From Ruminococcus sp. (lineage in GTDB: Bacteria; Bacillota; Clostridia; Oscillospirales; Ruminococcaceae): a stretch of DNA of 64,000 nt. Position numbers and translations under genes: made by a program. Below, piece after piece: positions 1,035-64,000 of the stretch (positions are counted from its first letter, which is position 1; each line of letters opens with the position of its first letter). The notes under the pieces were generated by a model that ran no database searches, was not told the origin of the DNA, and saw only the letters and a list, made by a program, of their open reading frames with translations. Where the stretch lies: positions 1 through 64,000 of the forward strand of contig SVNP01000012.1 in assembly GCA_015066805.1 (NCBI GenBank). Direction: 5' to 3'.

Positions 1035-1955
1035 TCATGATATGCTTTGTTGTTTCTCGCTAACAGCTAAAATGAAATCTGCCATGGTCATGGCCGAATT
1101 CACCAAAAGTCGAGCATGGTGTTCTTCGATGTTGATTCGCCTTGCTCCCACTCCATGCGAGTCACTTCCTATATTTCTCATTTCAGCGATAGAAGTTAAT
1201 ATTTTTTCAAGACCAGAAAGCAAGGTATTAATGCGTTTATCAATTTCTTTATTTTGATGCATATTATGCAGCTGTTTCACTTGACTATAAAGCTTTTTAA
1301 TATCACCACTTTCTGATGGTGTTTCCCCCTTCTTTTCAATAACATAGCAAAAGACTTCTTCAAGTAGCGTTCTTGATTGTGTAATCGCACTATCATAGTT
1401 TCTATCTGCGACATTTTTCATCGCACGGTTTGAAAGATCGATAATATATTCTCTGGTTATTCTCTCAACTGCTGGGACTTCAACTGATATATTTGTGCCG
1501 ATTTCCCTAATCAGAAATTTCTTTCCAATAAGCACAAGTTCATTACCACCGAAATACAGAATGCTATTTATGTGCTCTATTACTGTTTTCACGATCTGAG
1601 TATGTGCGTACTCAATATGTGCGGGGCTACGTCCCTTTAAAGTGTTCATAAACTGCTCTTTTGAAAAAAGAAACGAAAGCAAATCAGATATCCGGTTATT
1701 TTGAATACAATAATCCATTAACTCATCAAAATACACCCATCTGCTTTGGGCACTGCCATTTCGCAAATATGAAGCGGGTAGACCACATCGTTTTGAAATT
1801 TCACACAGTGTTGGACCACTTAAATATGGCATTTCAATCTTTATCCCACTATCTTTGCCGTCAATTTCCAGTGTCCCAAATTGCTTATCACCATCAAGAA
1901 TGGAAATAATCTCTTTGTCACGCAGTAACTCGAATTTATTGGTCTGCTGTTTCAT
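1035..1955 (-). CDS. Abortive infection family protein (Abi C-terminal domain)
   Basis: This 306-residue protein has a C-terminal region that fits the abortive-infection C-terminal domain (Abi-C). A helical stretch with SRTLLEEVFCYVIEKKG is followed by LEKILTSIAEMRNIGSDSHG and then HARLLVNSAMTMADFIL; the RN(x)4-5HG motif is the family hallmark. The N-terminal ~120 residues are not recognised. I start it at the ATG at 1955, preceded by GAGAGGTG at six bases; a GTG nine bases upstream overlaps that site. Family members are linked to phage exclusion by suicide of infected cells, but this protein's trigger and target are unknown. It lies directly downstream of a restriction endonuclease in an AT-rich defence region. 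Confidence 0.75.
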   Translation of the reverse strand: MKQQTNKFELLRDKEIISILDGDKQFGTLEIDGKDSGIKIEMPYLSGPTLCEISKRCGLPASYLRNGSAQSRWVYFDELMDYCIQNNRISDLLSFLFSKEQFMNTLKGRSPAHIEYAHTQIVKTVIEHINSILYFGGNELVLIGKKFLIREIGTNISVEVPAVERITREYIIDLSNRAMKNVADRNYDSAITQSRTLLEEVFCYVIEKKGETPSESGDIKKLYSQVKQLHNMHQNKEIDKRINTLLSGLEKILTSIAEMRNIGSDSHGVGARRINIEEHHARLLVNSAMTMADFILAVSEKQQSIS

Positions 1956-2003
1956 ATCCGTCACCTCTCTTTTTTAACAAATCGTTTTCCAACAATAGGG
2001 GTA

Positions 2004-3476
2004 TCATAATTTGAGCTTTTTAATATCAAATAATGTGTTTTCTATGTAGTGTTTGTACACTATCTTTGCAGGCAACAAGCGTACTTGAATATCCTGCAAC
2101 CCCAAATTTTTCAACATCGCAAGCGATACGGTACCTTTTTTAATTATCTCCATAGAAGCAGTCGGCATAAGGAAACAGTTCCGCACGGTGCTGATTTGAT
2201 GTGCTTCTACAAAAGGCTGATATGCTAACTGGTACAGATACTGCTTGGTAATGGATTCGATACCTGGCTGACCACGCAGCTTTTTGTTATGCTCCAACTG
2301 GATGTTATAGTATTTGGCATCAAATATGATAAACTGATAGTCCCCATTGGCATTAACAATGGAAATGAGGTCTGGGATGAGCGTAGCCTCGGCCTGCTTC
2401 ACAAACGGTTCACCATTCGGTGCAGTTCCTGCCCACTGTGGTTTATCAATTAAATCAATGAGTTTTTTATGCCGCATATCACAGTATTGCTCGGCTAACG
2501 ATACGGGCAGTCGTAGTCCGCCGATTGGCTTCTGCAACTGGTTGTCCATTACTTCCGCACAGACCTTTTCCCATACCAGATTGAAGCTGTTCGTTCCGAA
2601 CATACTGAAGCAGTCCAGATCGTCCAGCGTGCTGCTGTTGGCTATGTAGGCATACAGCGTTTTCAGCAGAAGCTGTTTGCGGGTACTAAACTGGACATTG
2701 AGTTCTTTGACAATACGTTCCAGAACATACTCCTTGTCGCCAAAGTCCTCGATATGTTCGTCAGAAATATCGGCACCCATAATATCGAACAGATCCAACA
2801 GATCGGCATCTCTCAATTCCTCCGTGCAACGAGTAAGGATACACTCATGTAGGCGCTTGAAGAAATCAAAATCGTCATTCACACGCTTCATGGTCAGCAA
2901 TTCTGGGTAATATGGCCGATTGTTGCTTAAGAGAGTGAAAGTTTCGTTGATGGTCTTATCCCAAAGAATGTCACCGGACCCGTTGGATTCGATGATGTCC
3001 TGTGTGTTGGTATAGGCACCATACTCGAAATAATCTTGGAGGAGGAACAGCATAACTGCCAGCATATTGAATGCACTACTGTCACTCGTATCGTTGTACA
3101 TACGAATGATCTGTTCCTTGGAATTGTACTTTTCCAGAACTTTCAGTACTTGTTTCAGTTCTGCTTTGGGGGTCGTGGCATCAAGCAGATATTTCGGATA
3201 GCATTTCAGCACACGCCCCTCAATTGTAATAACACCCACAAAAGTGAACACATACAGATATTCGTTTTCGCCGACCTCAACATCAGCGATTTCGATGTCC
3301 TCATCCAACAGGTCGGTGAGATCCTTCTGTGTGTCATTTGCTTTTACAGCCTTCAGAACACCATATTCTTTTAGACGCTTCAAAATGCGGACAGTCTTTT
3401 CCTCGGAACAATGAAACTCTTTAACCAGGTCTTCCTGGGTATAACGCTTTTGTTCTCGTAAAAATACCGAAATCAT
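2004..3476 (-). CDS. LlaJI family type II/IV-like restriction endonuclease subunit
   Basis: This 490-residue protein matches the overall layout of the LlaJI restriction endonuclease family (PF09563). An N-terminal winged-helix-like segment (YTQEDLVKEFHCSEEKTVRILKR) precedes a long helical middle. The C-terminal nuclease core has a PD-(D/E)xK-like pattern: LIPDLI (about residue 381) and FIIFDAKYY (about residue 400), with D and D-x-K acidic/lysine positions. In characterised LlaJI systems this subunit works with an McrB-like NTPase and two methyltransferases. Here the ATG overlaps the stop of a truncated McrB-like fragment (ATGA), which keeps the operon signature, but no intact NTPase or methyltransferase is in the window. 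The nuclease is probably orphaned and inactive as a restriction system. Confidence 0.8.
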   Translation of the reverse strand: MISVFLREQKRYTQEDLVKEFHCSEEKTVRILKRLKEYGVLKAVKANDTQKDLTDLLDEDIEIADVEVGENEYLYVFTFVGVITIEGRVLKCYPKYLLDATTPKAELKQVLKVLEKYNSKEQIIRMYNDTSDSSAFNMLAVMLFLLQDYFEYGAYTNTQDIIESNGSGDILWDKTINETFTLLSNNRPYYPELLTMKRVNDDFDFFKRLHECILTRCTEELRDADLLDLFDIMGADISDEHIEDFGDKEYVLERIVKELNVQFSTRKQLLLKTLYAYIANSSTLDDLDCFSMFGTNSFNLVWEKVCAEVMDNQLQKPIGGLRLPVSLAEQYCDMRHKKLIDLIDKPQWAGTAPNGEPFVKQAEATLIPDLISIVNANGDYQFIIFDAKYYNIQLEHNKKLRGQPGIESITKQYLYQLAYQPFVEAHQISTVRNCFLMPTASMEIIKKGTVSLAMLKNLGLQDIQVRLLPAKIVYKHYIENTLFDIKKLKL

Positions 3477-3817
3477 TCTCCATCATCCTCTGGAACATTA
3501 TCAATAAACTGACTGCTGATTCTTTCGCAGAAAATGTAAACACCCTTGGTGTCAAATTCTCTGCAAATCTTAGAATACTGGTTCTTTGCCTTCTCATCGC
3601 AGCCGCCGAACAGCGTAATACGCTTCTGTTTTGCGGCATCGTCGAACAGGTACATAATAACCTTGTTCTTAAAGATTCGAGTGAAGACAGCCGAATCAAA
3701 CATTTCGCCTTCCGGCAAATTCTTCTTAGAAATGAAGTACGGGCCCATCAGCTTATCCTCGTTCACCTTATAAGTACCTATTGATTGTTTTACATCTATC
3801 TTCCTCGCACACCTCAT
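3473..3817 (-). pseudogene. C-terminal fragment of an McrB-like AAA ATPase (LlaJI motor partner)
   Basis: From about 3775 to the stop at 3473 the frame encodes the end of an McrB/LlaJI-type NTPase: VNEDKLMGPYFIS, then FKNKVIMYLFDDAAKQKR, then YSKICREFDTKGVYIF. These are the last ~100 residues of proteins normally 600 or more residues long. The Walker motifs are gone. The codons upstream (MRCARKIDVKQSIG) have no homology and come from a fusion to the HNH fragment, so the open frame is an accident of a deletion. Its stop overlaps the start of the LlaJI endonuclease gene, the normal gene order of the system. Confidence 0.75.
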
Positions 3818-8178: not shown

Positions 8179-10797
8179 ATGCAAGATCCGAAATACCCTG
8201 TTGTTGACAGCGTAGATGCACTGCTGGAATGCTTTGCCCGCGTGCGGAAAGCCCAGCAGAAATTCGCAACCTATACCCAGGAGCAGGTAGATGCCATCTT
8301 CCGTGCCGCAGCCATGGCAGCCAATCAGGCCCGTATCCCTCTTGCCAAAATGGCAGTGGAGGAAACCGGCATGGGCATCGTGGAAGACAAGGTCATCAAG
8401 AATCACTATGCATCCGAGTATATCTATAACGCTTATAAAAACACCCCTACCTGCGGTGTCATCGAATCCGATCCCGCCTTTGGCATTCAGCGCATTGCAG
8501 AGCCCATCGGCGTCATCGCTGCGGTCATCCCCACCACCAACCCTACCTCCACCGCTATCTTCAAAACACTGATCACTCTGAAAACCCGTAACGGCATCAT
8601 CATCAGCCCCCACCCCCGTGCAAAGGCCTCTACCATTGCCGCAGCAAAGCTGGTGTATGAAGCCGCTGTAAAGGCCGGCGCACCCGAAGGTCTCATGGGC
8701 TGGATCGACATTCCCTCTCTGGAGCTGACCAATACCGTCATGAAGGAAGCCGACCTGATCCTTGCCACCGGCGGCCCCGGCATGGTGAAATCCGCCTATT
8801 CCAGCGGCAAGCCTGCCCTGGGCGTAGGTGCCGGCAATACGCCTGCCATTATTGACGAAAGTGCGGATATCGTGCTTGCCGTTAATTCCGTGATCCACTC
8901 CAAAACCTTTGATAACGGCATGATCTGCGCCTCCGAGCAGTCTGTGCTGGTCATGGATGCCATCTACGACAAGGTAAAAGCCGAGTTTGCCGCAAGAGGC
9001 TGCTATTTCCTCAATGCGGAGGAAACGGAAAAGGTCAGAAAGACCATTCTCATCAACGGCTCTCTCAACGCAAAGATCGTGGGGCAGTCTGCCTGCCGCA
9101 TCGCACAGCTTGCGGATGTGACCGTGCCTGCCTCCACCAAGATTCTCATCGGTGAGGTGGAAAGCGTTTCCCTCTCCGAAGAATTCGCCCATGAGAAGCT
9201 CTCGCCCGTGCTTGCCATGTACCGTGTCAAGAGCTTTGATGAGGCTCTGGATAAGGCAGAACGCCTTGTCATGGACGGCGGCTACGGACATACCGCCTCT
9301 ATTTACCTGAATCCCGTAACCGCAAGAGAAAAACTGGATGTGTTCGCTGCCCGTATGAAGGCCTGCCGCATCGTGGTCAATACCCCTTCCTCCCACGGCG
9401 GTATCGGCGATCTGTACAACTTCCGTCTGGCACCCTCTCTGACCTTGGGCTGCGGTTCCTGGGGCGGCAATTCCGTCTCCGAAAACGTGGGTGTCAAGCA
9501 TCTGCTGAACATTAAAACCGTTGCGGAAAGGAGAGAGAATATGCTGTGGTTCCGTGCCCCCGAAAAGGTCTACATGAAAAAAGGCTGCCTGCCTGTAGCT
9601 CTGGATGAGCTTGGCTCTGTGCTGGGCAAAAAGCGCGTGTTCATCGTAACCGACAGCTTCCTCTTCAACAACGGCTATACCAAGCCCGTAACCGACAAGC
9701 TGGATGCCATGGGCATCGTGCACACCACCTTCTTTGAGGTCGAGCCGGATCCCACTCTTGCCTCCGCAAGGGCAGGTGCAGCCGCCATGACAGTCTTCCA
9801 ACCCGACTGCATCATCGCCATCGGCGGCGGCTCCGCCATGGATGCCGCAAAGATCATGTGGGTGCTGTATGAGCATCCCGATGCAGACTTTATGGACATG
9901 GCCATGCGCTTCATCGACATCCGCAAGCGTGTATACGGCTTCCCCAAAATGGGCGAAAAGGCTTACTTTATTGCAGTTCCCACCTCTGCCGGTACCGGCT
10001 CCGAGGTTACTCCCTTCGCAGTCATCACCGATGAAACCAGCGGTGTGAAGTATCCTCTGGCAGATTACGAGCTGATGCCCGATATGGCCATCGTGGATGC
10101 CGACCTGATGATGAATGCACCCAAGAGCCTGACTTCCGCATCGGGTATTGATGTGGTCACTCATGCACTGGAGGCCTATGCTTCTATGCTGGCAACGGAT
10201 TATACCGACGGTCTGGCTCTGCGTTCCATGCAGATGGTGTTCGGCTATCTGCCCCGTGCCTACGATAACGGCCCCAACGATCCCGTCGCCCGTGAAAAAA
10301 TGGCAAATGCCGCCACCATGGCAGGTATGGCCTTTGCAAATGCCTTTTTGGGTGTGTGCCATTCCATGGCGCATAAGCTGGGTGCCTTCCACCATCTGCC
10401 CCATGGCATTGCCAATGCGCTGATGCTGGAACAGGTGCTGCGCTTCAATGCCACTGAAACACCCGTGAAGATGGGTACCTTCTCCCAGTACGATCACCCC
10501 CATACACTGGCAAGATATGCCGAGGTTGCCGATGCATTGGGTCTGAAGGGCAATACCGATACCGAAAAGCTGGAAGCTCTCATTACCGCACTGGAGGAGC
10601 TGAAGGCCGCTGTAGGCATCAAGGAGAGTATTCAGGCATATGGCATCGATGAAGCAGACTTCCTTGCACGGCTCGACGATATGACTGAGCAGGCGTTTGA
10701 TGACCAGTGCACAGGCGCCAACCCCCGCTATCCGCTGATGTCCGAAATCAAGCAGATGTACCTGAATGCTTACTACGGCAAGCATGACGCAGTATAA
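8179..10797 (+). CDS. adhE: Bifunctional acetaldehyde-CoA/alcohol dehydrogenase
   Basis: This 872-residue fusion enzyme reduces acetyl-CoA to acetaldehyde and then ethanol, re-oxidising NADH in fermentation. The N-terminal aldehyde dehydrogenase half has the catalytic cysteine in NGMICASEQS and an NAD-binding GVGAGNTPA region. After a linker, the C-terminal iron-dependent alcohol dehydrogenase half has GGGSAMDAAK and metal-binding histidines in HSMAHKLGAFHHLPHG. Length and domain order are typical of AdhE. The ATG at 8179 follows GGAGG at eight bases; a TTG five codons upstream overlaps the binding site and is rejected. The next gene starts 20 bases later and may be co-transcribed. Confidence 0.97.
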   Translation: MQDPKYPVVDSVDALLECFARVRKAQQKFATYTQEQVDAIFRAAAMAANQARIPLAKMAVEETGMGIVEDKVIKNHYASEYIYNAYKNTPTCGVIESDPAFGIQRIAEPIGVIAAVIPTTNPTSTAIFKTLITLKTRNGIIISPHPRAKASTIAAAKLVYEAAVKAGAPEGLMGWIDIPSLELTNTVMKEADLILATGGPGMVKSAYSSGKPALGVGAGNTPAIIDESADIVLAVNSVIHSKTFDNGMICASEQSVLVMDAIYDKVKAEFAARGCYFLNAEETEKVRKTILINGSLNAKIVGQSACRIAQLADVTVPASTKILIGEVESVSLSEEFAHEKLSPVLAMYRVKSFDEALDKAERLVMDGGYGHTASIYLNPVTAREKLDVFAARMKACRIVVNTPSSHGGIGDLYNFRLAPSLTLGCGSWGGNSVSENVGVKHLLNIKTVAERRENMLWFRAPEKVYMKKGCLPVALDELGSVLGKKRVFIVTDSFLFNNGYTKPVTDKLDAMGIVHTTFFEVEPDPTLASARAGAAAMTVFQPDCIIAIGGGSAMDAAKIMWVLYEHPDADFMDMAMRFIDIRKRVYGFPKMGEKAYFIAVPTSAGTGSEVTPFAVITDETSGVKYPLADYELMPDMAIVDADLMMNAPKSLTSASGIDVVTHALEAYASMLATDYTDGLALRSMQMVFGYLPRAYDNGPNDPVAREKMANAATMAGMAFANAFLGVCHSMAHKLGAFHHLPHGIANALMLEQVLRFNATETPVKMGTFSQYDHPHTLARYAEVADALGLKGNTDTEKLEALITALEELKAAVGIKESIQAYGIDEADFLARLDDMTEQAFDDQCTGANPRYPLMSEIKQMYLNAYYGKHDAV

Positions 10798-10817
10798 ATT
10801 CAAAGGAGGCGTTTCTC

Positions 10818-11573
10818 ATGGCAATGCAATATGATGCTGTACTGGCACAGCGCAGCCAGAAGACCATCTACCGTGACGGTGATACCGTTCTGAAGATTTT
10901 TGAGCCTTCCTATTCCAAGGCCAATGTGCTGAATGAAGCACTGAATCAGGCCAGAGTGGAAGAAACCGGTCTGCACATCCCCCGCTTGCTGGAGGTGCTG
11001 ATGATCGACGGCAAATGGGCGATCCGCGCCGAATTCATTGAGGGCAGAACCCTGCAGCAGATGATGGAGGAACAGCCCCAAAACATGGAGGAGTATCTGG
11101 AGCAGTTTGTAGCTTTGCAGATGGAAGTGCATACCAAGGAATCCCCCCTGCTGAATAAGCTGAAAGATAAAATGAACCGCAAAATCAGCGAGAGTGCCTT
11201 TGATGCCACCACCCGCTACGAGCTGCATACCCGTCTGGAATCCATGCCCAAGCACAAAAAGGTGTGTCACGGCGATTTCAACCCCTCCAACATCATTGTT
11301 ACCCCCGAAGGCGTTCCCTATATTCTGGACTGGTCTCACGCCACCCAGGGCAATGCTTCGGCGGATGTGGCAAGGACCTACCTGCTGTTCTGTCTGGCAG
11401 GCGCACAGGAAACCGCTGACCGCTACCTGAATCTGTTCTGCAAAAAAACCGATACCGCCAAGCAGTATATCCAGTCCTGGATGCCTATTGTGGCTGCTTC
11501 CCAGTCGGTCAAGGGCAATGCGGACGAGCGTGCCATGCTCAAGCGTTGGGTCAATGTGGTAGATTACGAATAA
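10818..11573 (+). CDS. APH-type phosphotransferase family protein
   Basis: This 251-residue protein has the protein-kinase-like fold of the aminoglycoside phosphotransferase family. The catalytic loop is CHGDFNPSNIIV (HGDxxxxN) and the metal-binding segment is ILDWSHA. An N-terminal lobe contains DGDTVLKIF with the expected lysine. The C-terminus is helical. Such proteins phosphorylate small molecules (antibiotics, choline, thiamine, sugars) and most in gut Firmicutes have no proven substrate; I would not call resistance. AAAGGAGG precedes the ATG. It is 20 bases after adhE, and a hairpin follows it. Confidence 0.85.
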   Translation: MAMQYDAVLAQRSQKTIYRDGDTVLKIFEPSYSKANVLNEALNQARVEETGLHIPRLLEVLMIDGKWAIRAEFIEGRTLQQMMEEQPQNMEEYLEQFVALQMEVHTKESPLLNKLKDKMNRKISESAFDATTRYELHTRLESMPKHKKVCHGDFNPSNIIVTPEGVPYILDWSHATQGNASADVARTYLLFCLAGAQETADRYLNLFCKKTDTAKQYIQSWMPIVAASQSVKGNADERAMLKRWVNVVDYE

Positions 11574-11592
11574 CCCCCCCGGCAACAACCAA

Positions 11593-11623
11593 TATGCCGT
11601 CCCGATGCGTCATCGGGACGGCA
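11593..11623 (+). terminator. Strong hairpin after the phosphotransferase gene
   Basis: A perfect 14-bp stem (11593-11606 with 11610-11623) with a 3-base loop. No U-run follows (ACCCATAAC), so it may be a weak terminator or an mRNA-stabilising structure. Confidence 0.5.
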
Positions 11624-11670
11624 TACCCATAACCCCAAAGAATCAACAGAGAAACAAGGAGCTGTCTTTT

Positions 11671-14436
11671 ATGGCTGCAATTCTGGATTGGAATGTATAT
11701 CTGCAAGCTGCTGCGGATGCCGTTGCAGAAGGCGTTGTGCTGCTGAAAAACCGAGATCAGGCACTTCCCTTGCCCAAAGAAGAACCTGTGGCAGTATTCG
11801 GCAGAATACAACTGCACTATTACAAAAGCGGTACCGGCTCCGGCGGTATGGTCAATGCCCCCGTGATAACCGGCATTTTGGATGGCCTGCGGGAACAGTG
11901 CATTGCCGTGGATGAAACCCTGCTGGAGATCTACCGGCAGTGGGATGCTGCCCACCCCTATGATCTGGGCACCGGCTGGGGTGCCGAGCCCTGGTCACAG
12001 CAGGAAATGCCCCTGACCGATGAAATCGCTGCGGCTAGTGCGGAAAATCACAGCCGGGCAGTGGTCGTCATCGGCCGTACTGCGGGTGAAGAACAGGATC
12101 ACCGTATGGAGGCAGGCTCCTATCTGCTGGCCGATGAAGAGATCCGGATGCTGCAGATCGTCCGCAAGCACTTCAAAACCATGATCGTGCTGCTGAATGT
12201 GGGCGGCATCATTGATATGAAAGAGATCGAAGCTGTCGATCCGGATGCCATTGTGTACGTCTGGCAGGGCGGTATGACCGGCGGCAGCGGTACAGCCGCC
12301 GTCTTAAGCGGCGAGGTCAGTCCCTCCGGCAAGCTGCCGGATACCATTGCTTATGAGATCACCGATTATCCCTCGCACCCCTATTTCGGTGACAGAGAAC
12401 GGAATTTCCACAGCGAGGATATCTACATCGGCTACCGTTATTTCGAAACCTTTGCCAAGGAAAAGGTGCGCTATCCCTTCGGCTTCGGCCTTTCCTACAC
12501 CGAGTTTTCCATTTCTGCCGCAGCAGTTGCGGCGGAAGATGATGTTGTGACCATTACGGCAGCCGTAAAGAATATCGGTGCCTGCTGCGGCAAGGAAGTC
12601 GTGCAGCTATATGCGGAAGCCCCTCAGGGCAAGCTGGGCAAGCCCGCCAGAGTGCTGTGCGGCTTTGCCAAAACCCGCACATTGGCTCCCGGAGAAGAAG
12701 AACTGCTGACCATTGCCGTTAAGCTCCGTGAGCTGGCTTCCTATGATGACAGCGGTGCCACAGGCAACCCCTACTGCTATGTGCTGGAGGAGGGTGCTTA
12801 CCACTTCTATCTGGGCAGCGATGTACGTTCTGCTGCCAAATGCTACACCCATCTGCTGGAGGAAACACAGGTGACCTCCCGCTGCGTGCAGTGTATGGCA
12901 CCTGTACTGCCCTTTGAACGCATTCGCCCTGTGGCTGCGGAGGATGATGGCTATGTCATCTCCATGGAGCCTGTTCCGCTTTCCGAAGTGGATGAAACAG
13001 AGCGCAGCCGCACCCGCCTGCCCTATGAGATCCCCCATACGGGAGATATGGGCATTACCCTGCAGGATGTGAAAAACGGCACCGCCACACTGCGTGCATT
13101 TATCGCCCAGCTTTCCGATGAGGAGCTTTCTTCTCTGGTGCGGGGCGAAGGCATGGGCAGCCCCCGTGTGACAGCCGGTACCGCCTCCGCCTTTGGCGGC
13201 GTGGCAAAAGGTCTGGTGCATTATGGGATCCCAGCGGTATGCTGCTCCGACGGCCCTTCCGGTATGCGCCTGGATTGCGGCACACCTGCCTGCAGTCTGC
13301 CCAATGGTACCTTGCTGGCCGCTACCTTCAACCGTGAGCTGCTGACCCGGCTGTTTACTCTGACCGGTCTGGAAATGCGTGCCAATCATGTGGATTGTCT
13401 GCTGGGTCCCGGCATGAACCTGCACCGTCACCCCTTAAACGGCCGCAATTTCGAGTATTTCTCCGAAGACCCCTATCTCACCGGCATGATGGCTGCTGCA
13501 CAACTGGAAGGTCTGCACAGCGTTGGCGTCAGCGGCACCCTGAAGCACTTCTGCGGCAATGAGCAGGAAACCAACCGACATTTTCTGGATGCGGTGATCT
13601 CCGAGCGTGCATTGCGTGAAATGTATCTGAAAGGCTTTGAACTGGCTGTGAAATACGGCAAGGCAAAGAGCATCATGACCACCTACGGCTCTGTCAACGG
13701 TCTTTGGACTGCCGGCACACTGGATCTGACTACCCTGATCCTGCGGGAAGAATGGGGCTTTTCCGGTATTGTGATGACCGATTGGTGGGCAAATATCAAC
13801 CGCCGCAACGAAGCACCCCGCAGAGATCTGACCTCTGTGATGGTTGCCGCCCAGAACGATCTGTACATGGTATGCTCCGATACGGAAACCCCCGACGGCG
13901 ATATCATGCAGGCTTTGGAGGCTAAGACCCTGACCCGCGGCGAGCTGCAGCGTTGTGCATCCAATATCTGCGAGTTTATTCTGCACACCCCTGCCATGCA
14001 GCGGCTTTGCGGCACTGCAGAAAATGTAGAGATCCTGAACCGTCCCACCGAAGGGCAGCCGCAGGAAGGCGATGTGGTATTCTATCCGCTGGAGGGAGCA
14101 CTGACCATTCCCCTGGATGCGGTTGCTGCCGAGCGTGGTACTGCCTTCAGCTTTGCACTGGATGTGGCGACACCCGGCTACTATCATATCACGGTAACGG
14201 CTTCTTCCACGGCCGGCCCGCTGGCACAGATGCCTGTTACCCTGTTCAGCATGGGAACCGCCCACACTACCTTTACCTGGAACGGTACCGAGGGCAAGCC
14301 GGTTTCTTTCAGTACCGATATCCCCATGTTCTCCCGTTTTACCACCATGCGTCTGTATTTCGCACAAAGCGGCCTGCAAATGCACGAGATCTCCTTTACC
14401 CTGACCCAGGGCGGCATCAACATTGCCGCATTATAA
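11671..14436 (+). CDS. GH3 beta-glucosidase with permuted domain order
   Basis: This 921-residue protein hydrolyses beta-linked gluco-oligosaccharides (family 3). The usual order is reversed. The (alpha/beta)6 GH3 C-terminal domain comes first (AEGVVLLKN at residues ~19-27, then VAVFGR), followed by a fibronectin-III-like domain (VVQLYAEAP). The catalytic (alpha/beta)8 domain is last, from about residue 480: SDGPSGMRLD, KHFCGNEQETNRH, and the nucleophile Asp704 in VMTDWW. A C-terminal beta-sandwich tail (about 780-921) follows. No signal peptide is present, so it acts in the cytoplasm on imported cello-oligosaccharides. Permuted GH3 enzymes are known from Ruminococcus albus and Butyrivibrio. 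ATG 11671 follows AAGGAGC at nine bases. Confidence 0.92.
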   Translation: MAAILDWNVYLQAAADAVAEGVVLLKNRDQALPLPKEEPVAVFGRIQLHYYKSGTGSGGMVNAPVITGILDGLREQCIAVDETLLEIYRQWDAAHPYDLGTGWGAEPWSQQEMPLTDEIAAASAENHSRAVVVIGRTAGEEQDHRMEAGSYLLADEEIRMLQIVRKHFKTMIVLLNVGGIIDMKEIEAVDPDAIVYVWQGGMTGGSGTAAVLSGEVSPSGKLPDTIAYEITDYPSHPYFGDRERNFHSEDIYIGYRYFETFAKEKVRYPFGFGLSYTEFSISAAAVAAEDDVVTITAAVKNIGACCGKEVVQLYAEAPQGKLGKPARVLCGFAKTRTLAPGEEELLTIAVKLRELASYDDSGATGNPYCYVLEEGAYHFYLGSDVRSAAKCYTHLLEETQVTSRCVQCMAPVLPFERIRPVAAEDDGYVISMEPVPLSEVDETERSRTRLPYEIPHTGDMGITLQDVKNGTATLRAFIAQLSDEELSSLVRGEGMGSPRVTAGTASAFGGVAKGLVHYGIPAVCCSDGPSGMRLDCGTPACSLPNGTLLAATFNRELLTRLFTLTGLEMRANHVDCLLGPGMNLHRHPLNGRNFEYFSEDPYLTGMMAAAQLEGLHSVGVSGTLKHFCGNEQETNRHFLDAVISERALREMYLKGFELAVKYGKAKSIMTTYGSVNGLWTAGTLDLTTLILREEWGFSGIVMTDWWANINRRNEAPRRDLTSVMVAAQNDLYMVCSDTETPDGDIMQALEAKTLTRGELQRCASNICEFILHTPAMQRLCGTAENVEILNRPTEGQPQEGDVVFYPLEGALTIPLDAVAAERGTAFSFALDVATPGYYHITVTASSTAGPLAQMPVTLFSMGTAHTTFTWNGTEGKPVSFSTDIPMFSRFTTMRLYFAQSGLQMHEISFTLTQGGINIAAL

Positions 14437-53681: not shown

Positions 53682-55472
53682 TTATTGAATGGGTTCAAAA
53701 TCGGCAGCACCGTGCTTGCACAGCGGACAAATGAAATCCTCCGGCAGGGTATCGCCCTCATGCACATAGCCGCAGATCTTGCAAACAAAACCTTTTTTGC
53801 CCTCAGTTTCGGGCTTGGGCTTCACATGATCCTGATAGTAGGTATAGGTCATGGTTTCATCATTGGAAATGGTGCGTGCTTCCGTCACCTCGCAGATAAA
53901 CATACCGTGAGTATCCAGATCCACATACTGCACCACCTTCAGAGAAAGGAAGGCGTTAATGTGTCTGGGCAGCACCACAAGGCCGTTTCCGGAGCGCAGC
54001 GGTTCGCACTCTGCAAATTTATCGGTATTTCTGCCGCTTTGGAAGCCGAATTTCTCAAAAACAGCAAAGGGAGCATCGGTGGTCAGGCAGTTGATGTTCA
54101 TTTTGCCCGTCTGCTTGATGACATGGTGAGAATAGTTCTCCTTATTAATGGTAACAGCCACACGGTTGGGGGTATTGGTCACCTGGGTCACCGTGTTGAC
54201 GATCAGGCCGTTATCCCGTTTGCCATCGTTGGAGGTGACCACATACAGACCGTAGCCGATGCGGAACAGCGCAGAGGGATCGTTGGTATTGGTGTTATCG
54301 CTGCGTACTGCCAGATATTCCATGGTCAGTTCATCGGCAAGGGCGTTGAGCTGTGCCGTGCTTTCCTCATTCAGTGCCGAAAGGATCCGCACGGTATTTT
54401 CCGCATACTTCAGGTTACGGGATTTTTCCAGCATGCTCTTCATCACCTTGGCCGCCAGCGGTGCCCAGCTTCCGTTTTCAATAAATGCCACGGTACGGTT
54501 GCTGAAGTTGCGCTCTGTCAGGTGGTTGATAAACTCCCGCATAAAGGGGAAGATCTCTGCGTTATAGGTGGTGGTTGCCAGCACCAACTTGCTGTAGCGG
54601 AAGGCATCCTCCACGGCTTCTGCCATGTCGCATCGGGCCAGATCATTGACCACCACTTTGGGACAGCCATTGGCGCGCAGCTTTTCCGCAAGCTGCATAA
54701 CAGCCTTTTTGGTATTGCCATACACGGAAGTATACGCAATGACGATACCGTCTTCTTCCGGCTGATAGCCCGACCAGATGTTGTAAAGATTCAGGTAGTA
54801 GCCCAGGTTTTCTTTCAGCACAGGGCCGTGCAGGGGACAGATGATCTGAATATCCAGACCGGCGGCCTTCTTCAGCAAAGCCTGCACCTGCGCGCCGTAT
54901 TTGCCCACAATACCGATATAGTAGCGTCTGGCTTCGCAGGCCCAGTCTTCATCCACGTCCAGTGCACCAAACTTGCCAAAGCCATCGGCCGAAAACAATA
55001 CCCGATCGGTGCTGTCATAGGTCACAATGACCTCCGGCCAATGCACCATGGGAGCTGCCACAAAGTGCAGGGTATGCTTGCCCAGCTCCAGCACAGAGCC
55101 TTCGCCCACCACTACCTGACGCTCTGCAAAATCCGTGCCGAAGAAGTTCTTCATCATGGCAAATGCCTTGACAGAGGACACGATCTTTGCATCCGGGTAG
55201 GCCTTCACAAACTGCATAATGTTGGCGGAATGATCCGGCTCCATATGCTGCACGATCAGATAATCGGGCTTTCTGCCGCCCAGTGCATTCTGCAGATTGT
55301 CCAGCCATTCATGGGTAAAGGCTGCATCTACGGTATCCATCACGGCAATTTTATCATCCATGATGACATACGAATTATATGCCATACCGTTGGGAACGAT
55401 GTATTGTCCCTCAAACAGATCAATATTATGGTCGTTTACACCGATATAGCGGATATCACTTGTGATATGCAT
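53682..55472 (-). CDS. Multidomain flavodiiron protein (MBL-diiron/flavodoxin/flavin reductase/rubredoxin)
   Basis: This 596-residue enzyme reduces oxygen (or NO) to water in anaerobes. The beta-lactamase-like diiron domain has H76-x-E78-x-D80-H81 (QHMEPDHS), then PMVHWPE, FSADGFG and CPLHGPV, so all iron ligands seem present. A flavodoxin domain (YTSVYGNTKKAV, about 250-400) follows. A flavin-reductase-like domain (about 405-545, VNTVTQVTNTPNRVAVTINK) comes next, then a C-terminal rubredoxin (CKICGYVHEG, CPLCKHG). Carrying its own reductase and rubredoxin domains suggests it takes electrons directly from NAD(P)H. It is first in an operon with free rubredoxin and desulfoferrodoxin. Confidence 0.93.
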   Translation of the reverse strand: MHITSDIRYIGVNDHNIDLFEGQYIVPNGMAYNSYVIMDDKIAVMDTVDAAFTHEWLDNLQNALGGRKPDYLIVQHMEPDHSANIMQFVKAYPDAKIVSSVKAFAMMKNFFGTDFAERQVVVGEGSVLELGKHTLHFVAAPMVHWPEVIVTYDSTDRVLFSADGFGKFGALDVDEDWACEARRYYIGIVGKYGAQVQALLKKAAGLDIQIICPLHGPVLKENLGYYLNLYNIWSGYQPEEDGIVIAYTSVYGNTKKAVMQLAEKLRANGCPKVVVNDLARCDMAEAVEDAFRYSKLVLATTTYNAEIFPFMREFINHLTERNFSNRTVAFIENGSWAPLAAKVMKSMLEKSRNLKYAENTVRILSALNEESTAQLNALADELTMEYLAVRSDNTNTNDPSALFRIGYGLYVVTSNDGKRDNGLIVNTVTQVTNTPNRVAVTINKENYSHHVIKQTGKMNINCLTTDAPFAVFEKFGFQSGRNTDKFAECEPLRSGNGLVVLPRHINAFLSLKVVQYVDLDTHGMFICEVTEARTISNDETMTYTYYQDHVKPKPETEGKKGFVCKICGYVHEGDTLPEDFICPLCKHGAADFEPIQ

Positions 55473-58238: not shown

Positions 58239-61200
58239 TTACGCCTTGAAGATCACACGGACAAAGTTGTAGATATGGGCATGGATCGAATTATCGCCAT
58301 GATAGCCGCCGTTGACATAATGCCAGATATGAGGCACGCCATTGCTTGTAAAGGAGTTGTGATACCCTTCCGGAGAAGAATATACCACAGTATCATTGCT
58401 GCCGGCCGTCATAAACAGCAGGGAGGGTGCTTCTGCCTCGCTGTTCCATTGGAAGCTTCCCGTAACACCGGGAGCCGCACAGATGGAGCCGACATAACCA
58501 AACAGATCCGCACGCTGCATACCGATGAGAAGAGCTTCTCTGCCGCCCATGGAAAATCCGGTAATGGCAGTGTTTTCTCTGCCTGTTTTTACGCTGTAAG
58601 TCGATTCGATATGAGGCATCAGATCCTTGGTCAGGTCATTGATGAAATTATCATAGGCTGCATTATTGGCATCATCCATGGCATTGCAGCTATCCTGTGT
58701 GGCACTGGAATAGATATACGGGAACACTACGATCATATCCTCGGCTGCGCCCTCCGCAATGGCATTGCCGATGATCTGGCGGGTATACATGGTGCCGTTG
58801 CCTGTCAGGATCATACGGTCCTGGTTTTCCCAGTAGCCGTGCATCACATACAGCACAGGATACTGCTTGCTTTCGGAATAGCCTGCGGGCAGCAGAATGT
58901 TATACGGCTTATTGCGGTTACAGGTGGTGGAATAATATGTGCCCGACTGCACGGTGCCATAGGCTCTGCCCGCTACCTCGTTGTGAGAGGATGCGGGTTC
59001 TGTTTCCACAACGGTTGCTGCGGCAATGGGAGTATATTCCGACATAGGACGCATCCCCTGCCTTTCCGCCACGGGGAACTCCGTGATCTTCATGGTAATA
59101 TAGTCGCAGATCAGTTGTACATCCGTTGCGTCCACAGCACCGCTCTGATCCACATCGGCGGCAAGCTCTGCCACAGAGCTTGCAAATGCACCTTTACGGA
59201 CCCCCTGCTTTGCCGCAGAAAGATCGGCTGCACCGATCATACCGTCACAGTTCACGTCACCAAGGATCAGTTGTACGGCAGCAGGGCCTTCCACAACTGT
59301 ACCCGCCACTGCACCGATGGCTTCATCAATGTAGAAGTTCATGGTGTTATCGGCGGTTTCCACATAAATCTGCATATCGGTCGCATCTGCGGGGATCACA
59401 TAATCGGTATTGGCAAGCTGCACATAGGAATCCTTTACCGCAGTAGCTTCGGCAATGGTGCTGTACTGCGTGGTACCCTCAGCATCCACATATTGCAGCT
59501 TCAGATAGAACAACTGGGTGGGGGCACCATCCACATAACGGGCACACACGCTGAAGCTGTAGGCATTGCCCGGCCGAAAAGCATTGGCACTGATGGGACG
59601 CATGGCACCGTTCCATGCGGCAGTGCGCTCCTGCACCAGCAAGGCTTCCGCCCCCTGATAAGGCACTCTGCCGCTGGTCATCAGGGATGCATCGCCACGT
59701 CCCTGCCAGCTATCCAGATCGCCTTCAAAGGTACTGTGGAAGAAATAACCGTTTGCATCCGGCTCCACCACCGTAGGAAGATTCCAATCGGCGCGGCTGT
59801 AAGAGAAGGAATCAATATCAGCATAGCCTCCGGTGGATTTGGTGGCATAGCTGTAAATACCGCTGCGGTAGCCTGTAAACAGCTTCAGATCATAGACCAT
59901 GCTCAGCTCTTCGCCGATTTTTGTCCAACTATTGCCATCATATGAGTAATAGAAATTAGCTTTATCAATATTATTGGAGCTGCTGCCATCGGAAGTAATG
60001 TTGTTGAACAGGAAATCCACTTTCAGGTAGATCGTATCACCGTTGAGGTTCACCTGCTCCACAATACGGTCGTAGCTGTCGGTTACGGCAGAGCTGCCGG
60101 AATATCCGCCGTTGTTGGACATATAGATTTTTTTGGAGCCGTCATCTGCCACATAAACGCCCACATTGCCGTATTTGAACTGGAATGCGGAAAGTCCTGC
60201 ATAATCGCCCACCTTCATGCCCTTGGTATCCAGCTTGATGACACTGCTGCAGGCGGGGCCTTCGGTACGCTGCGTCAGCGTATTGCGGGCATTCAGCAGA
60301 TGATTGGCAAGGGTCTTGTTGGTCAGCCGCAGATATCCCGCACGCTCTGTCACAGACCATGCCGTGTGATCGGGGTTATGATTCCACTGCCACTCCAGAG
60401 CCAGCTTATTGGCATCATAGGAAAAGTCATCACTGACTGCAAGCTGTGTGCCTGTAAAATCCCCATCTACCGTCAAAGTCACGGGAACTTTGCCGTTTAC
60501 GCCCATCATAGGCCAGTTATCCTGCCAGCTTACAGGCACCAGCACGGGGATTCTGCCCACAGAACCATGATCCTGGAACAGCATACCATACCATTTACCG
60601 TCGGGTGTATCCACAATACCGCCCTGAGCAACACCGCTGCCATAGCTTCCCACACCGGAATTCAGCACAGTTTTGCCCTCATAGGTGCCAAGCAGCTCCT
60701 TGCTGCGATAACAAAGCTCGATTCTGCCGCTGCCGGAAGGCCATGCGATGATAAACACATAGTAATAATCGCCGATCTTCTGGATATGAGCGCCCTCGCC
60801 GCTCAAGCCATCCAAGCCTGTTTTGAACAATGTTTTTTCTGCACCGCCGCTTTTAAAGCCTGTCATTTCGGCGTTCAGCTCTTTGATTTTAATTTCACCG
60901 CCGCCGCCATAGACCAGATAGTTTCTGCCATCGTCATCAAACAGGATAGAGGCATCATGGTACATTCCGTTGATCTCGGAACGGGTCCATGTGCCGTTTT
61001 CAATATCCTTGGTCTGATAAATATACGACTTGCCCGAACCATAGCTGCCAAAGAACACATAGTAGGTACCGTTGTGATACCGCAGGCTGGTGGCCCACTG
61101 ACCATGGGCGTAATCATGCTTGCCATTGGTCAGATTTTGCACATCGCCGTCAGCATAGGTATCATACACATAGTTGCAGATCTCCCAGGAAACCAGATCC

Positions 61201-61439
61201 TTGGATTTCATAATGGGCGCACCGGGGCTGAAATACATGGTGGTGCTGACCATATAATAGGTATCCCCCACACGGATCACATCCACATCGGGCACATCCG
61301 CCCAGATAATGGGATTGGATACCACCGAAGCAGCCACTGCCTTGGGCAGATTCTGCTGCATCTCTGCCATTGGTACGGATACCACCGTCAGCAAAGCCGA
61401 CATGGCACATGCAACATATTTCAAAATTCTGTTTCTCAT
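58239..61439 (-). CDS. Dockerin hemicellulase: GH43 / CBM22 / dockerin / CE1 feruloyl esterase
   Basis: This 1066-residue secreted enzyme has a signal peptide. The GH43 beta-propeller (about 40-330) has WADVPDVDVIRVGDTYYM and YHDASILFDDDGRNYLVYGG. A beta-sandwich of the GH43 C-terminal type (about 340-560) follows, then a CBM22-like xylan-binding domain (about 575-715). A type I dockerin comes next (GDVNCDGMIGAADLS and ADVDQSGAVDATDV). The C-terminal CE1 esterase (about 800-1066) has the nucleophile in TGFSMGGRE and a late GGYHGDNSIHAH histidine region. It would strip arabinose/xylose and ferulate from arabinoxylan while docked on a cellulosome. ATG 61439 follows AAGGGGATT. Confidence 0.93.
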   Translation of the reverse strand: MRNRILKYVACAMSALLTVVSVPMAEMQQNLPKAVAASVVSNPIIWADVPDVDVIRVGDTYYMVSTTMYFSPGAPIMKSKDLVSWEICNYVYDTYADGDVQNLTNGKHDYAHGQWATSLRYHNGTYYVFFGSYGSGKSYIYQTKDIENGTWTRSEINGMYHDASILFDDDGRNYLVYGGGGEIKIKELNAEMTGFKSGGAEKTLFKTGLDGLSGEGAHIQKIGDYYYVFIIAWPSGSGRIELCYRSKELLGTYEGKTVLNSGVGSYGSGVAQGGIVDTPDGKWYGMLFQDHGSVGRIPVLVPVSWQDNWPMMGVNGKVPVTLTVDGDFTGTQLAVSDDFSYDANKLALEWQWNHNPDHTAWSVTERAGYLRLTNKTLANHLLNARNTLTQRTEGPACSSVIKLDTKGMKVGDYAGLSAFQFKYGNVGVYVADDGSKKIYMSNNGGYSGSSAVTDSYDRIVEQVNLNGDTIYLKVDFLFNNITSDGSSSNNIDKANFYYSYDGNSWTKIGEELSMVYDLKLFTGYRSGIYSYATKSTGGYADIDSFSYSRADWNLPTVVEPDANGYFFHSTFEGDLDSWQGRGDASLMTSGRVPYQGAEALLVQERTAAWNGAMRPISANAFRPGNAYSFSVCARYVDGAPTQLFYLKLQYVDAEGTTQYSTIAEATAVKDSYVQLANTDYVIPADATDMQIYVETADNTMNFYIDEAIGAVAGTVVEGPAAVQLILGDVNCDGMIGAADLSAAKQGVRKGAFASSVAELAADVDQSGAVDATDVQLICDYITMKITEFPVAERQGMRPMSEYTPIAAATVVETEPASSHNEVAGRAYGTVQSGTYYSTTCNRNKPYNILLPAGYSESKQYPVLYVMHGYWENQDRMILTGNGTMYTRQIIGNAIAEGAAEDMIVVFPYIYSSATQDSCNAMDDANNAAYDNFINDLTKDLMPHIESTYSVKTGRENTAITGFSMGGREALLIGMQRADLFGYVGSICAAPGVTGSFQWNSEAEAPSLLFMTAGSNDTVVYSSPEGYHNSFTSNGVPHIWHYVNGGYHGDNSIHAHIYNFVRVIFKA

Positions 61440-61716
61440 ACGCAAATCCCCTTGTTTCTTTTATGATCTGTACGGCTGATCGGTTGTTCGTCGGATGGAT
61501 GTTTTTTTGGGCTTCGTCCGTATCACAAACCGATTTCGCCTTTTATATTATAACGGATATACGACTGAATTGCAATTCAAAAATGCGCTGTATTCTTTGC
61601 ACTTTTATGCTCCGCTCAAGTGGAGAGCTTAGGTTTTTGGATCATATTGCCATAACGAGACCTGAGTTATTGCCGCCCCGCAAGAAAGTCCATTCCCAAG
61701 CAACCTCATGTGCAAG
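61440..61716. other. Intergenic region upstream of GH43-CE1
   Basis: Besides the promoter and palindrome, no coding sequence is supported. The leader from the predicted start to the ATG is about 100 bases. From about 61590 the base composition shifts toward the right-hand accessory region. Confidence 0.5.
61547..61578 (-). promoter_or_regulatory. Promoter of GH43-CE1 with palindrome over the -35 box
   Basis: -35 TTGCAA (61570-61575) and -10 TATAAT (61547-61552), 17-base spacer. The -35 lies inside a perfect palindrome TGAATTGCAATTCA (61566-61579), a candidate operator. Confidence 0.7.
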
Positions 61717-62032: not shown

Positions 62033-62065
62033 AAAAAATCTCCGATGCGCTATGCATCGGAGATT
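62033..62065 (-). terminator. Hairpin with T-run, minus strand
   Basis: AATCTCCGATGC (62037-62048) pairs with GCATCGGAGATT (62054-62065), then TTTTTTA on the minus strand. It follows a short open stretch ending NLVKPPLFGAIYFGQE and a stop at 62071. Confidence 0.75.
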
Positions 62066-62299
62066 AGATGTCACTCTTGCCCGAAATAGATGGCACCAAA
62101 AAGCGGCGGTTTTACGAGGTTTTTCAAGTGTTCCATTGCTTGGAGAGCTTTTTTGCTTAACGGTAAAGACTTCCGTACCCCCGACCTCAGTTGGTATGAA
62201 GTTCTTTTCTTGCAATCGCACTGAACCCCTTACTTTCCTCAGCAAGGCATTCAATATACAGATTGTCCACCTAATCTGGAGGTATATCAAATTGTCATA
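62066..62299. other. Non-coding or degraded stretch downstream of the JAB gene
   Basis: Short minus-strand open stretches occur in several frames (one ends GFSAIARKELHTN, one ends FGAIYFGQE), each without a start signal. I read them as frameshifted remnants of one or two older genes rather than a working gene. Confidence 0.4.
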
Positions 62300-62779
62300 T
62301 CAAATCGCTTCATAGAACGGAATAATTGTTTCATTTGCGACGACTATAACAGTTTGCAACCAATGTTCTCTATTTCCGCCAATGATTATAAGAATGGGCT
62401 CGGGGCAATTGAGTTTCTTGTTTTGCGAGAGTGAAATCATCTGTTTAATATCCGAACTACTTGGTGTAGGCATTGAATTAGGATGATAATGCCACTCTCC
62501 CAAGTAATAATAGTTATCTTTCCATAGTGTATCCAGTCTTTTTTGTAATCCCTTAATGCCTCTCTTAAAAAATGCTTTTTTCTTAACAGAATCAGCAGGA
62601 GAATTAGAGATTTCTGAAATATGTGCAGTTAATCCATCATCTGAGTACTTACCTATTATAATACCCCCTGTTTCATATGGATTTGATTCATCACATAAAT
62701 AATGTAAAATGTTGAGTTGTGCAATTGGCAGCTCAATCTTTAGATTGGCATCAGAATTAATTAAAGTCAATTCAATCAC
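62300..62779 (-). CDS. JAB/MPN-domain metalloprotease (deubiquitinase-like)
   Basis: This 159-residue protein has the complete JAMM zinc signature: Glu36 in YETGGIIIG, then H97-x-H99 in GEWHYHP, S107 and D110 in PTPSSSD (HxH-x7-S-x2-D). Stand-alone bacterial JAB proteases process or remove ubiquitin-like modifiers. The gene starts with a GTG at 62779 that overlaps the last eight bases of the upstream E1-like gene, so the two are co-translated. In known systems (CBASS Cap3, BilC) the partner is likewise an E1/E2 enzyme. Base composition is AT-rich, unlike the core. Confidence 0.9.
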   Translation of the reverse strand: MIELTLINSDANLKIELPIAQLNILHYLCDESNPYETGGIIIGKYSDDGLTAHISEISNSPADSVKKKAFFKRGIKGLQKRLDTLWKDNYYYLGEWHYHPNSMPTPSSSDIKQMISLSQNKKLNCPEPILIIIGGNREHWLQTVIVVANETIIPFYEAI

Positions 62780-64000
62780 TCTCGCATTTATTAATTAAAG
62801 AATAACCTTCGTAATAATCATCCTCTTGCTGTTCGTATGTCAAAGATATTTGTTTTGATTCCCCCATGCTAATGAATTTTTCAATATTTTTCACAGCAAT
62901 GGATGCTGCCATCCAAATATCATCACTCCGAGCAGGGAACGTAGGATGCCAACAACCGATTCCGTCTCTAGGCAATTTATCTTCATCAACTTCTTTCAAA
63001 TCCATCATAATATACTGTGAAATAAACCGATAGAATTCATCAAAACTATAAACTCTATTGTTCTGCATATTGATGTACAGCCTTTTGGCACCAAAGCCCA
63101 CAGAAACAGATATAAAACAATGAGGGCTTTCAAATTCAACGCTTCTAAACGTCTCCAAAACTCTATCTTCACCAGTGCAATCTATAATTACATCATAGTG
63201 GTCTATTTCTATGCTTGCATGTAGTCCCTCACCATCGATAATCAACGATACAGTATTATTGATTGGTTTTATCTCAGCATGAGGATTGATAACATTCAGA
63301 TGTGAGCATAGGGAATTGCATTTGTTACGCCCAATGGACTTAAGACTGAGCGTATGTCTTGATAGATTCCCAACTTTAAATACATCGCTATCTGCTATTG
63401 ATAGATTATATATTCCAGATCTAACAAGTATTTCAGCAATAGAAGCCCCAATACAGCCAGCACCTATCAAAAGGATTCTTTTTCCTAGCATTATTCGTGG
63501 CATTTTTCCTCTTTGAGAGATATCGTCTTGGCTCCAATTCTCAGAAAAAATCCAATTTATCGGAAGATCTGCTTTTAAAACTTCAGTAATATCTCTGTGC
63601 CAGTATCCTGTGATATTATTTCTGAAACCTTTTGGGCATTGACGGCCATGTGAAAGTGTAGGAAGAAGAAAGGCTTTCCAGTAAATAATCTCATTCTCTT
63701 GAAACCAATATTTCGGTATTGGAAATCCCAAAAGGAATAAGCGAGGCATTCCATCACGCAAATATTTGGAACTCTCCTTAAGTAGCATTTTTATATCATA
63801 GCCCTGGGATTCACAAACTTCGAGTAATTCTGCCCATGTTTCGGGAACTTGCCAATCATGTAGCACAGGAACACTCTTTAATAAAACCCATGGCGATTTT
63901 ACTATCTTCATGGAATTCTGTTCTTCTAAAGCAGTTCCCCAATGAGAGTAATGAACAGGCTTATTATCAAACGAATAAAAAGTTTTAGGATAATAGATCG
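62772..64000 (-). CDS. ThiF/E1-like ubiquitin-activating enzyme, N-terminus off the window
   Basis: The frame is open from the window edge: 29 codons precede the first ATG (63911), which lacks a good ribosome-binding site, so the gene very likely starts outside. In the visible 408 residues, the first ~150 have an E2-like or linker character (LFLLGFPIPKYWFQENEIIYWKAFLLP). The adenylation domain follows: LLIGAGCIGASIAEIL (GxGxxG), ADSDVF, NLSRHTLSLKSIGRNK and DCTGEDRVLE. A candidate catalytic cysteine is in DGIGCWHPTFPAR near the end. I infer activation of a ubiquitin-like modifier or a C-terminal glycine substrate. The JAB gene overlaps its end. Confidence 0.85.
   Translation of the reverse strand, partial: IYYPKTFYSFDNKPVHYSHWGTALEEQNSMKIVKSPWVLLKSVPVLHDWQVPETWAELLEVCESQGYDIKMLLKESSKYLRDGMPRLFLLGFPIPKYWFQENEIIYWKAFLLPTLSHGRQCPKGFRNNITGYWHRDITEVLKADLPINWIFSENWSQDDISQRGKMPRIMLGKRILLIGAGCIGASIAEILVRSGIYNLSIADSDVFKVGNLSRHTLSLKSIGRNKCNSLCSHLNVINPHAEIKPINNTVSLIIDGEGLHASIEIDHYDVIIDCTGEDRVLETFRSVEFESPHCFISVSVGFGAKRLYINMQNNRVYSFDEFYRFISQYIMMDLKEVDEDKLPRDGIGCWHPTFPARSDDIWMAASIAVKNIEKFISMGESKQISLTYEQQEDDYYEGYSLINKCESD

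Follow-up and report, generated by a model that had tools for sequence, protein, structure and literature searches.

Among described type II CBASS systems, that of Enterobacter cloacae (the cyclic AMP-AMP-GMP synthase CdnD, Cap2, Cap3 and Cap4) has the same protein set as the two complete operons reported below, and it is presumably the source of PDB entries 7to3 and 7ljl, with which we compare them. A further comparison is provided by the type II CBASS of Bacillus cereus WPySW2, which, as presented in the accessible part of PMC11153139, combines a cyclase with a C-terminal alanine, a Cap2 with E2 and E1 cysteines, a Cap3 and a Nuc-SAVED effector. The likeness is one of description, and the gene order differs, being cyclase, Cap2, Cap3, effector in B. 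cereus. According to the same part of that paper, type II cyclases typically end in alanine or glycine and this last residue is joined to lysine on cellular targets, immunity of the B. cereus system is lost when either Cap2 cysteine or the last cyclase residue is mutated, and conjugation is proposed to keep the cyclase inactive until infection (PMC11153139). Cap4 is characterized in the accessible part of PMC8793285 as a SAVED sensor combined with a promiscuous DNA endonuclease. The accessible part of PMC13356809 speaks of CBASS in rumen microbes; the accessible part of PMC11834463 does not name CBASS.

The cap2–cap3 pair at the contig end

The stretch of DNA analysed here (the window) comprises the first 64,000 nucleotides of a contig of 64280 bases (SVNP01000012.1), which belongs to a Ruminococcus sp. 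genome of 39 contigs and 79.59% completeness (GCA_015066805.1). Two genes on the minus strand at the far end of this contig form, with a probability that we place at about 95%, the 3' half of a type II CBASS operon which is cut inside cap2 by the contig end and in which the gene order is effector (SAVED plus endonuclease, Cap4-like), CD-NTase (cyclic AMP-AMP-GMP synthase-like), cap2, cap3. Cap2 from its E2 cysteine onwards and Cap3 are seen directly in the contig. The features of the locus are as follows.

62037..62065, minus strand: terminator-like hairpin with T tail, downstream of cap3 (pattern match only)
62300..62779, minus strand: cap3, JAB/JAMM isopeptidase, GTG start, 159 aa (Pfam, PADLOC, JAMM residues)
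62772..64000, continuing to 64280, minus strand: cap2 (E1–E2 fusion), 3' part (PADLOC, PDB 7to3, alignment with relative L015, described below)
62952..62954, minus strand: E1 catalytic cysteine codon (C443 of the visible part, motif GIGCWHP; alignment)
64278–64280 of the contig, minus strand: E2 catalytic cysteine codon, the final codon before the contig end

The original prediction, made from the window alone, had described an intact JAMM motif, a ThiF/E1 domain in a frame that leaves the window, an eight-base overlap of the two genes and an AT-rich gene pair next to a GC-rich core, and all four observations hold. The Cap3 residues E36, H97, H99, S107 and D110 are in place and the motif is intact. 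The ThiF domain in Cap2 matches PF00899 with E 2.6e-19 and 69.8 bits against a cut-off of 28.1 (Pfam), and the frame that contains it is open from 62772 through 280 bases past the window to the contig end at 64280. A start at 63911, which the original prediction had named, together with unrelated metabolic neighbours, as something that would refute it, is unneeded because the frame is open to the contig end. The overlap occupies positions 62772–62779, and the GC content of the last two kilobases is 0.377 and 0.366, compared with mostly 0.50–0.57 from 4 to 61 kb.

The visible part of Cap2 matches the PADLOC E1–E2 profile PDLC00848 over profile positions 119–603 of 607 (E 3.1e-168, 558.8 bits), a score which far exceeds those of the best Pfam and NCBIfam models, and it matches the Cap2 chain of PDB entry 7to3 (7to3_A) from position 125 to 576 with E 9.3e-64. 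Cap3 matches Prok-JAB (Pfam PF14464, E 5.5e-11, 42.8 bits, cut-off 25) and the PADLOC JAB profile PDLC00890 (E 4.2e-52). The cut-off of the NCBIfam Cap3 equivalog, 200 bits, is reached neither by the JAB protein of the window (58.3 bits) nor by that of L015 (57.1 bits).

In a blastn comparison covering the last 14 kb of the contig, similarity to L015 spans positions 62069–64280. Its boundary at 62069 adjoins the terminator-like hairpin (62065–62037, minus strand), a pattern of which there are four sites in the surrounding kilobase against 0.7 expected from shuffles. Taken with its low GC content, the CBASS cassette looks like a unit acquired apart from its surroundings.

Complete operons in two Ruminococcus relatives

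A search of genome contigs for Cap2 relatives returned two loci, L015 and L016, each in a MAG titled Ruminococcus sp., the latter from a sheep omasum sample. Their Cap2 proteins are 93% (over 502 of 502 residues) and 77% identical to the visible Cap2, respectively. Each locus consists of four co-directional genes in the order SAVED/endonuclease effector, cyclase, Cap2, Cap3, with an effector of 467 aa, a cyclase of 352 or 350 aa and a Cap2 of 609 aa. The original prediction had pointed to the region beyond base 64000 as the place to look for partner genes, and had held that metabolic genes there would speak against a cassette of this kind. The contig itself ends 280 bases past that base, and the genes upstream of cap2 in both relatives are the cyclase and the effector.

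The effectors contain a SAVED domain (PF18145; E 4.5e-33 in L015 and 5.4e-33 in L016) and match the PADLOC 'Endonuclease' profile PDLC00735 over almost their full length (E 1.3e-150 and 3.3e-149, respectively). Compared with PDB entries, the L015 effector matches Cap4 best (7yib and 7yia, E 1.5e-26), and only over its SAVED half, the half in which it is like E. cloacae Cap4; the nuclease half (residues 1–216) has no phmmer match to solved Cap4. The cyclases contain a SMODS domain in both loci (Pfam PF18144) and match PADLOC profile PDLC00822 over their whole length, with E 1.6e-151 for L015 and 3.1e-149 for L016. The L015 cyclase has as its best PDB match the cyclic AMP-AMP-GMP synthase (7ljl, E 6.4e-96; 7to3_C, E 6.7e-96), and it falls under the cut-off of the NCBIfam CBASS cyclase models, the best score being 63.2 of 200. 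Both cyclases end in GRFA, as does that of the E. cloacae system; across the five cyclases compared this ending is found in four and GRFG in one.

The complete Cap2 proteins of L015 and L016 cover positions 3–600 and 2–593, respectively, of the 607 positions of the PADLOC E1–E2 profile, and align with the 7to3 Cap2 from residue 34 or 35 onwards (E 1.3e-70 and 5.8e-70). Neither has a match among the Pfam E2 models. The JAB proteins of both loci match PADLOC JAB profile PDLC00890.

These operons bear directly on whether the pair at the contig end could instead be a ubiquitin-like conjugation cassette outside CBASS that acts on another substrate, such as Bil, 6A-MBL or some other E1/E2/JAB operon. 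No cyclase is visible in the source genome, and the NCBIfam 6A-MBL model cap2_3 (NF058523) matches both proteins of the pair, at 106.2 and 86.1 bits. These scores are far under the cut-off of 320 curated for this equivalog, whereas the PADLOC E1–E2 score is 558.8 bits, and a cyclase and a SAVED effector lie directly upstream in both relatives. We therefore regard a non-CBASS cassette as very improbable; the Bil operon in particular was set aside because the cyclase is present in both L015 and L016. The type II CBASS Cap2/Cap3 pair had been among the options of the original prediction, which had proposed an E1/JAB cassette and suspected a different subtype. The CBASS option is the part that stands, and the different subtype does not.

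In our view, the CBASS pair is an ordinary member of a known system, of the cyclic AMP-AMP-GMP synthase/Cap2/Cap3/Cap4 type. With it, a well-studied form of antiphage signalling gains a further example, one that is related to loci in Ruminococcus MAGs, and no new mechanism. It is conceivable, but in our estimation unlikely, that type II CBASS of the cyclic AMP-AMP-GMP synthase type has a branch, found so far in Ruminococcus MAGs, which includes the pair and in which the effector combines SAVED with a nuclease domain without a phmmer match to solved Cap4 and possibly has another DNA or nucleotide specificity. The novelty of such an effector would be limited, because PADLOC already models an endonuclease effector of that kind.

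We note two features of the sequence around these operons. A frame upstream of the L015 operon (2702–3736 of that locus) resembles, by eye, an IS3-type transposase. Judged by eye, the genes behind the L016 operon (8693–13990) resemble phage structural genes, and for this reason the L016 copy may sit in or beside a prophage.

Catalytic cysteines of Cap2 and comparison with plasmid loci

A search of plasmids for Cap2 gave 126 records with a match, three of which were compared further. In the Enterobacter plasmid a SAVED gene is followed by an unnamed gene (47% identical to the L015 cyclase) and by Cap2, after which comes a stretch without listed genes; the visible Cap2 is 30% identical to this Cap2 over 479 positions, and the L015 effector shares 27% identity with its counterpart. 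The Nostoc plasmid has the order SAVED gene, unnamed gene at the place of the cyclase (53% identical to the L015 cyclase), Cap2, JAB. The Priestia megaterium plasmid (NZ_CP071471.1) carries a nucleotidyltransferase, a ThiF family protein and a Mov34/MPN/PAD-1 protein, the last two encoded by genes that overlap by 8 bases, and its cyclase and the L015 cyclase share 63% identity. In contrast to the other loci, no SAVED gene is listed alongside, and an alpha/beta hydrolase gene lies upstream on the opposite strand.

The Cap2 alignment has six rows (the window contig, L015, L016 and the Enterobacter, Priestia and Nostoc plasmids), and both the E1 cysteine and the E2 cysteine are present in all six. 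The cysteine of the GIGCWHP motif aligns with position 548 of the 7to3 Cap2, where the 7to3 chain reads A; at the same position the Enterobacter plasmid Cap2 reads cysteine. We take the 7to3 chain to carry mutated catalytic cysteines. Residue 1 of the visible Cap2 corresponds to residue 108 of the L015 protein, a cysteine which aligns with position 109 of 7to3, so that the E2 and E1 cysteines align with the E. cloacae protein at 109 and 548, respectively.

The visible cap2 amounts to 502 codons, compared with 609 in the two relatives, and the start of the L015 gene lies 107 codons upstream of the point matching the contig end at 64280. Just the cysteine codon at 64278–64280 and the downstream part of the E2 domain are thus present in the contig, and the lack of a standard E2 domain in the window is explained by an E2 core encoded past the last base of the contig. 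It had been noted at the outset that the N-terminal region is unlike a standard E2 domain. This is borne out in so far as the relatives likewise lack a Pfam E2 match, but what had looked odd is an assembly break, with sequence missing, and not a new subtype. We rejected a different Cap2 subtype on the grounds that the contig stops short of the E2 core and that L015 and L016, which are complete, match Cap2 across the E2 part.

Models of the ThiF/MoeB type match the Rossmann part of Cap2, and we considered whether the pair might consist of a metabolic adenylyltransferase of this type and a JAMM protease acting in sulfur-carrier processing. All of the equivalogs listed are partial matches under their cut-offs, for example 59.4 of 159 (NF006395) and 53.2 of 376.55 (TIGR02355), whereas the match to Cap2 is near full-length. 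When the visible Cap2 was used as the query, 90 of 100 genomes, the source genome included, gave a match at E <= 0.001, which leaves 89 of the 99 other genomes with matches to the Rossmann part. Among the matches listed, all but the contig's own fall within query residues 246–398 at 23–39% identity, and because they are confined in this way we do not regard them as Cap2. Phage records gave two matches to the same query, both of which fall in moeB-annotated genes and extend over 20% of it. The cysteine in GIGCWHP is common to the other five Cap2 rows, and the four larger neighbouring proteins of the window that were scanned are of other kinds. A ThiF/MoeB-type identity is accordingly extremely unlikely, and the pair is best read as Cap2 and Cap3 of a CBASS operon.

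Probable cyclase and effector of the source genome, and other genes of the window

We infer the cyclase and effector of the source genome from L015 and L016. Over its final 100 bases the contig has the same sequence as L015 cap2 (100% identity), and when L015 DNA comprising the effector, the cyclase and the start of cap2 was compared with the source genome, the only match was at the contig end, over these 100 shared bases. The L015 cyclase protein found no match in the source genome; as a control, it was found in both of the relatives' genomes. Among 30 genomes of the genus, including the source genome, it was found in none, a result which concerns close matches only. A SAVED family search of the source genome was uninformative, since the control genomes likewise gave 0 of 14. 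An assembly gap would be the simplest account of the missing genes because the genome is 79.6% complete and the contig ends inside cap2; the genes may also be absent or replaced.

The absence of cyclase and effector from the available contigs would also fit an operon that is truncated in the genome itself, a decayed remnant, and not by assembly. The break, however, coincides with the contig end and forms no junction with other sequence, the cap2 and cap3 frames are both open, the terminal 100 bases do not differ from the complete gene of L015, and the genome is 79.6% complete. There is in our judgement only a slender chance of such decay, and we retain the interpretation of an operon interrupted by the end of the contig.

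By homology with the described systems, the E1 domain of Cap2 would use ATP to activate the C-terminus of the cyclase, which would be passed by way of both catalytic cysteines, that of E1 and that of E2, and attached to lysine on a cellular target. Such conjugation might ready the cyclase for phage-triggered activation or could instead restrain it (compare the proposal in the accessible part of PMC11153139), and Cap3 would cleave the cyclase–target conjugate. The active cyclase would make a cyclic oligonucleotide that switches on the SAVED nuclease, which would then cut DNA and stop the phage. We infer all of these biochemical steps for the present locus, cyclase conjugation and phage protection included.

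Three further regions of the window, all on the minus strand, may be mentioned. At 58239–61445 lies a gene for a protein of 1068 aa with GH43, a GH43 C-terminal domain, CBM4/9, a type I dockerin and an esterase domain, which looks like a cellulosome-type xylan-degrading enzyme. The protein of 596 aa encoded at 53682–55472 contains an ODP/beta-lactamase-fold domain, flavodoxin, flavin reductase and a rubredoxin-like domain, and resembles a flavodiiron protein that carries additional modules. At the other end of the contig, the region 1038–3817 is also AT-rich and holds defence-like genes. One of them encodes a restriction endonuclease of the LlaJI type (PF09563, E 9e-53) and another an AbiJ-like protein (PADLOC, E 6.9e-80), while a fragment of 114 residues corresponds to positions 750–855 of a restriction enzyme profile of 857 positions.
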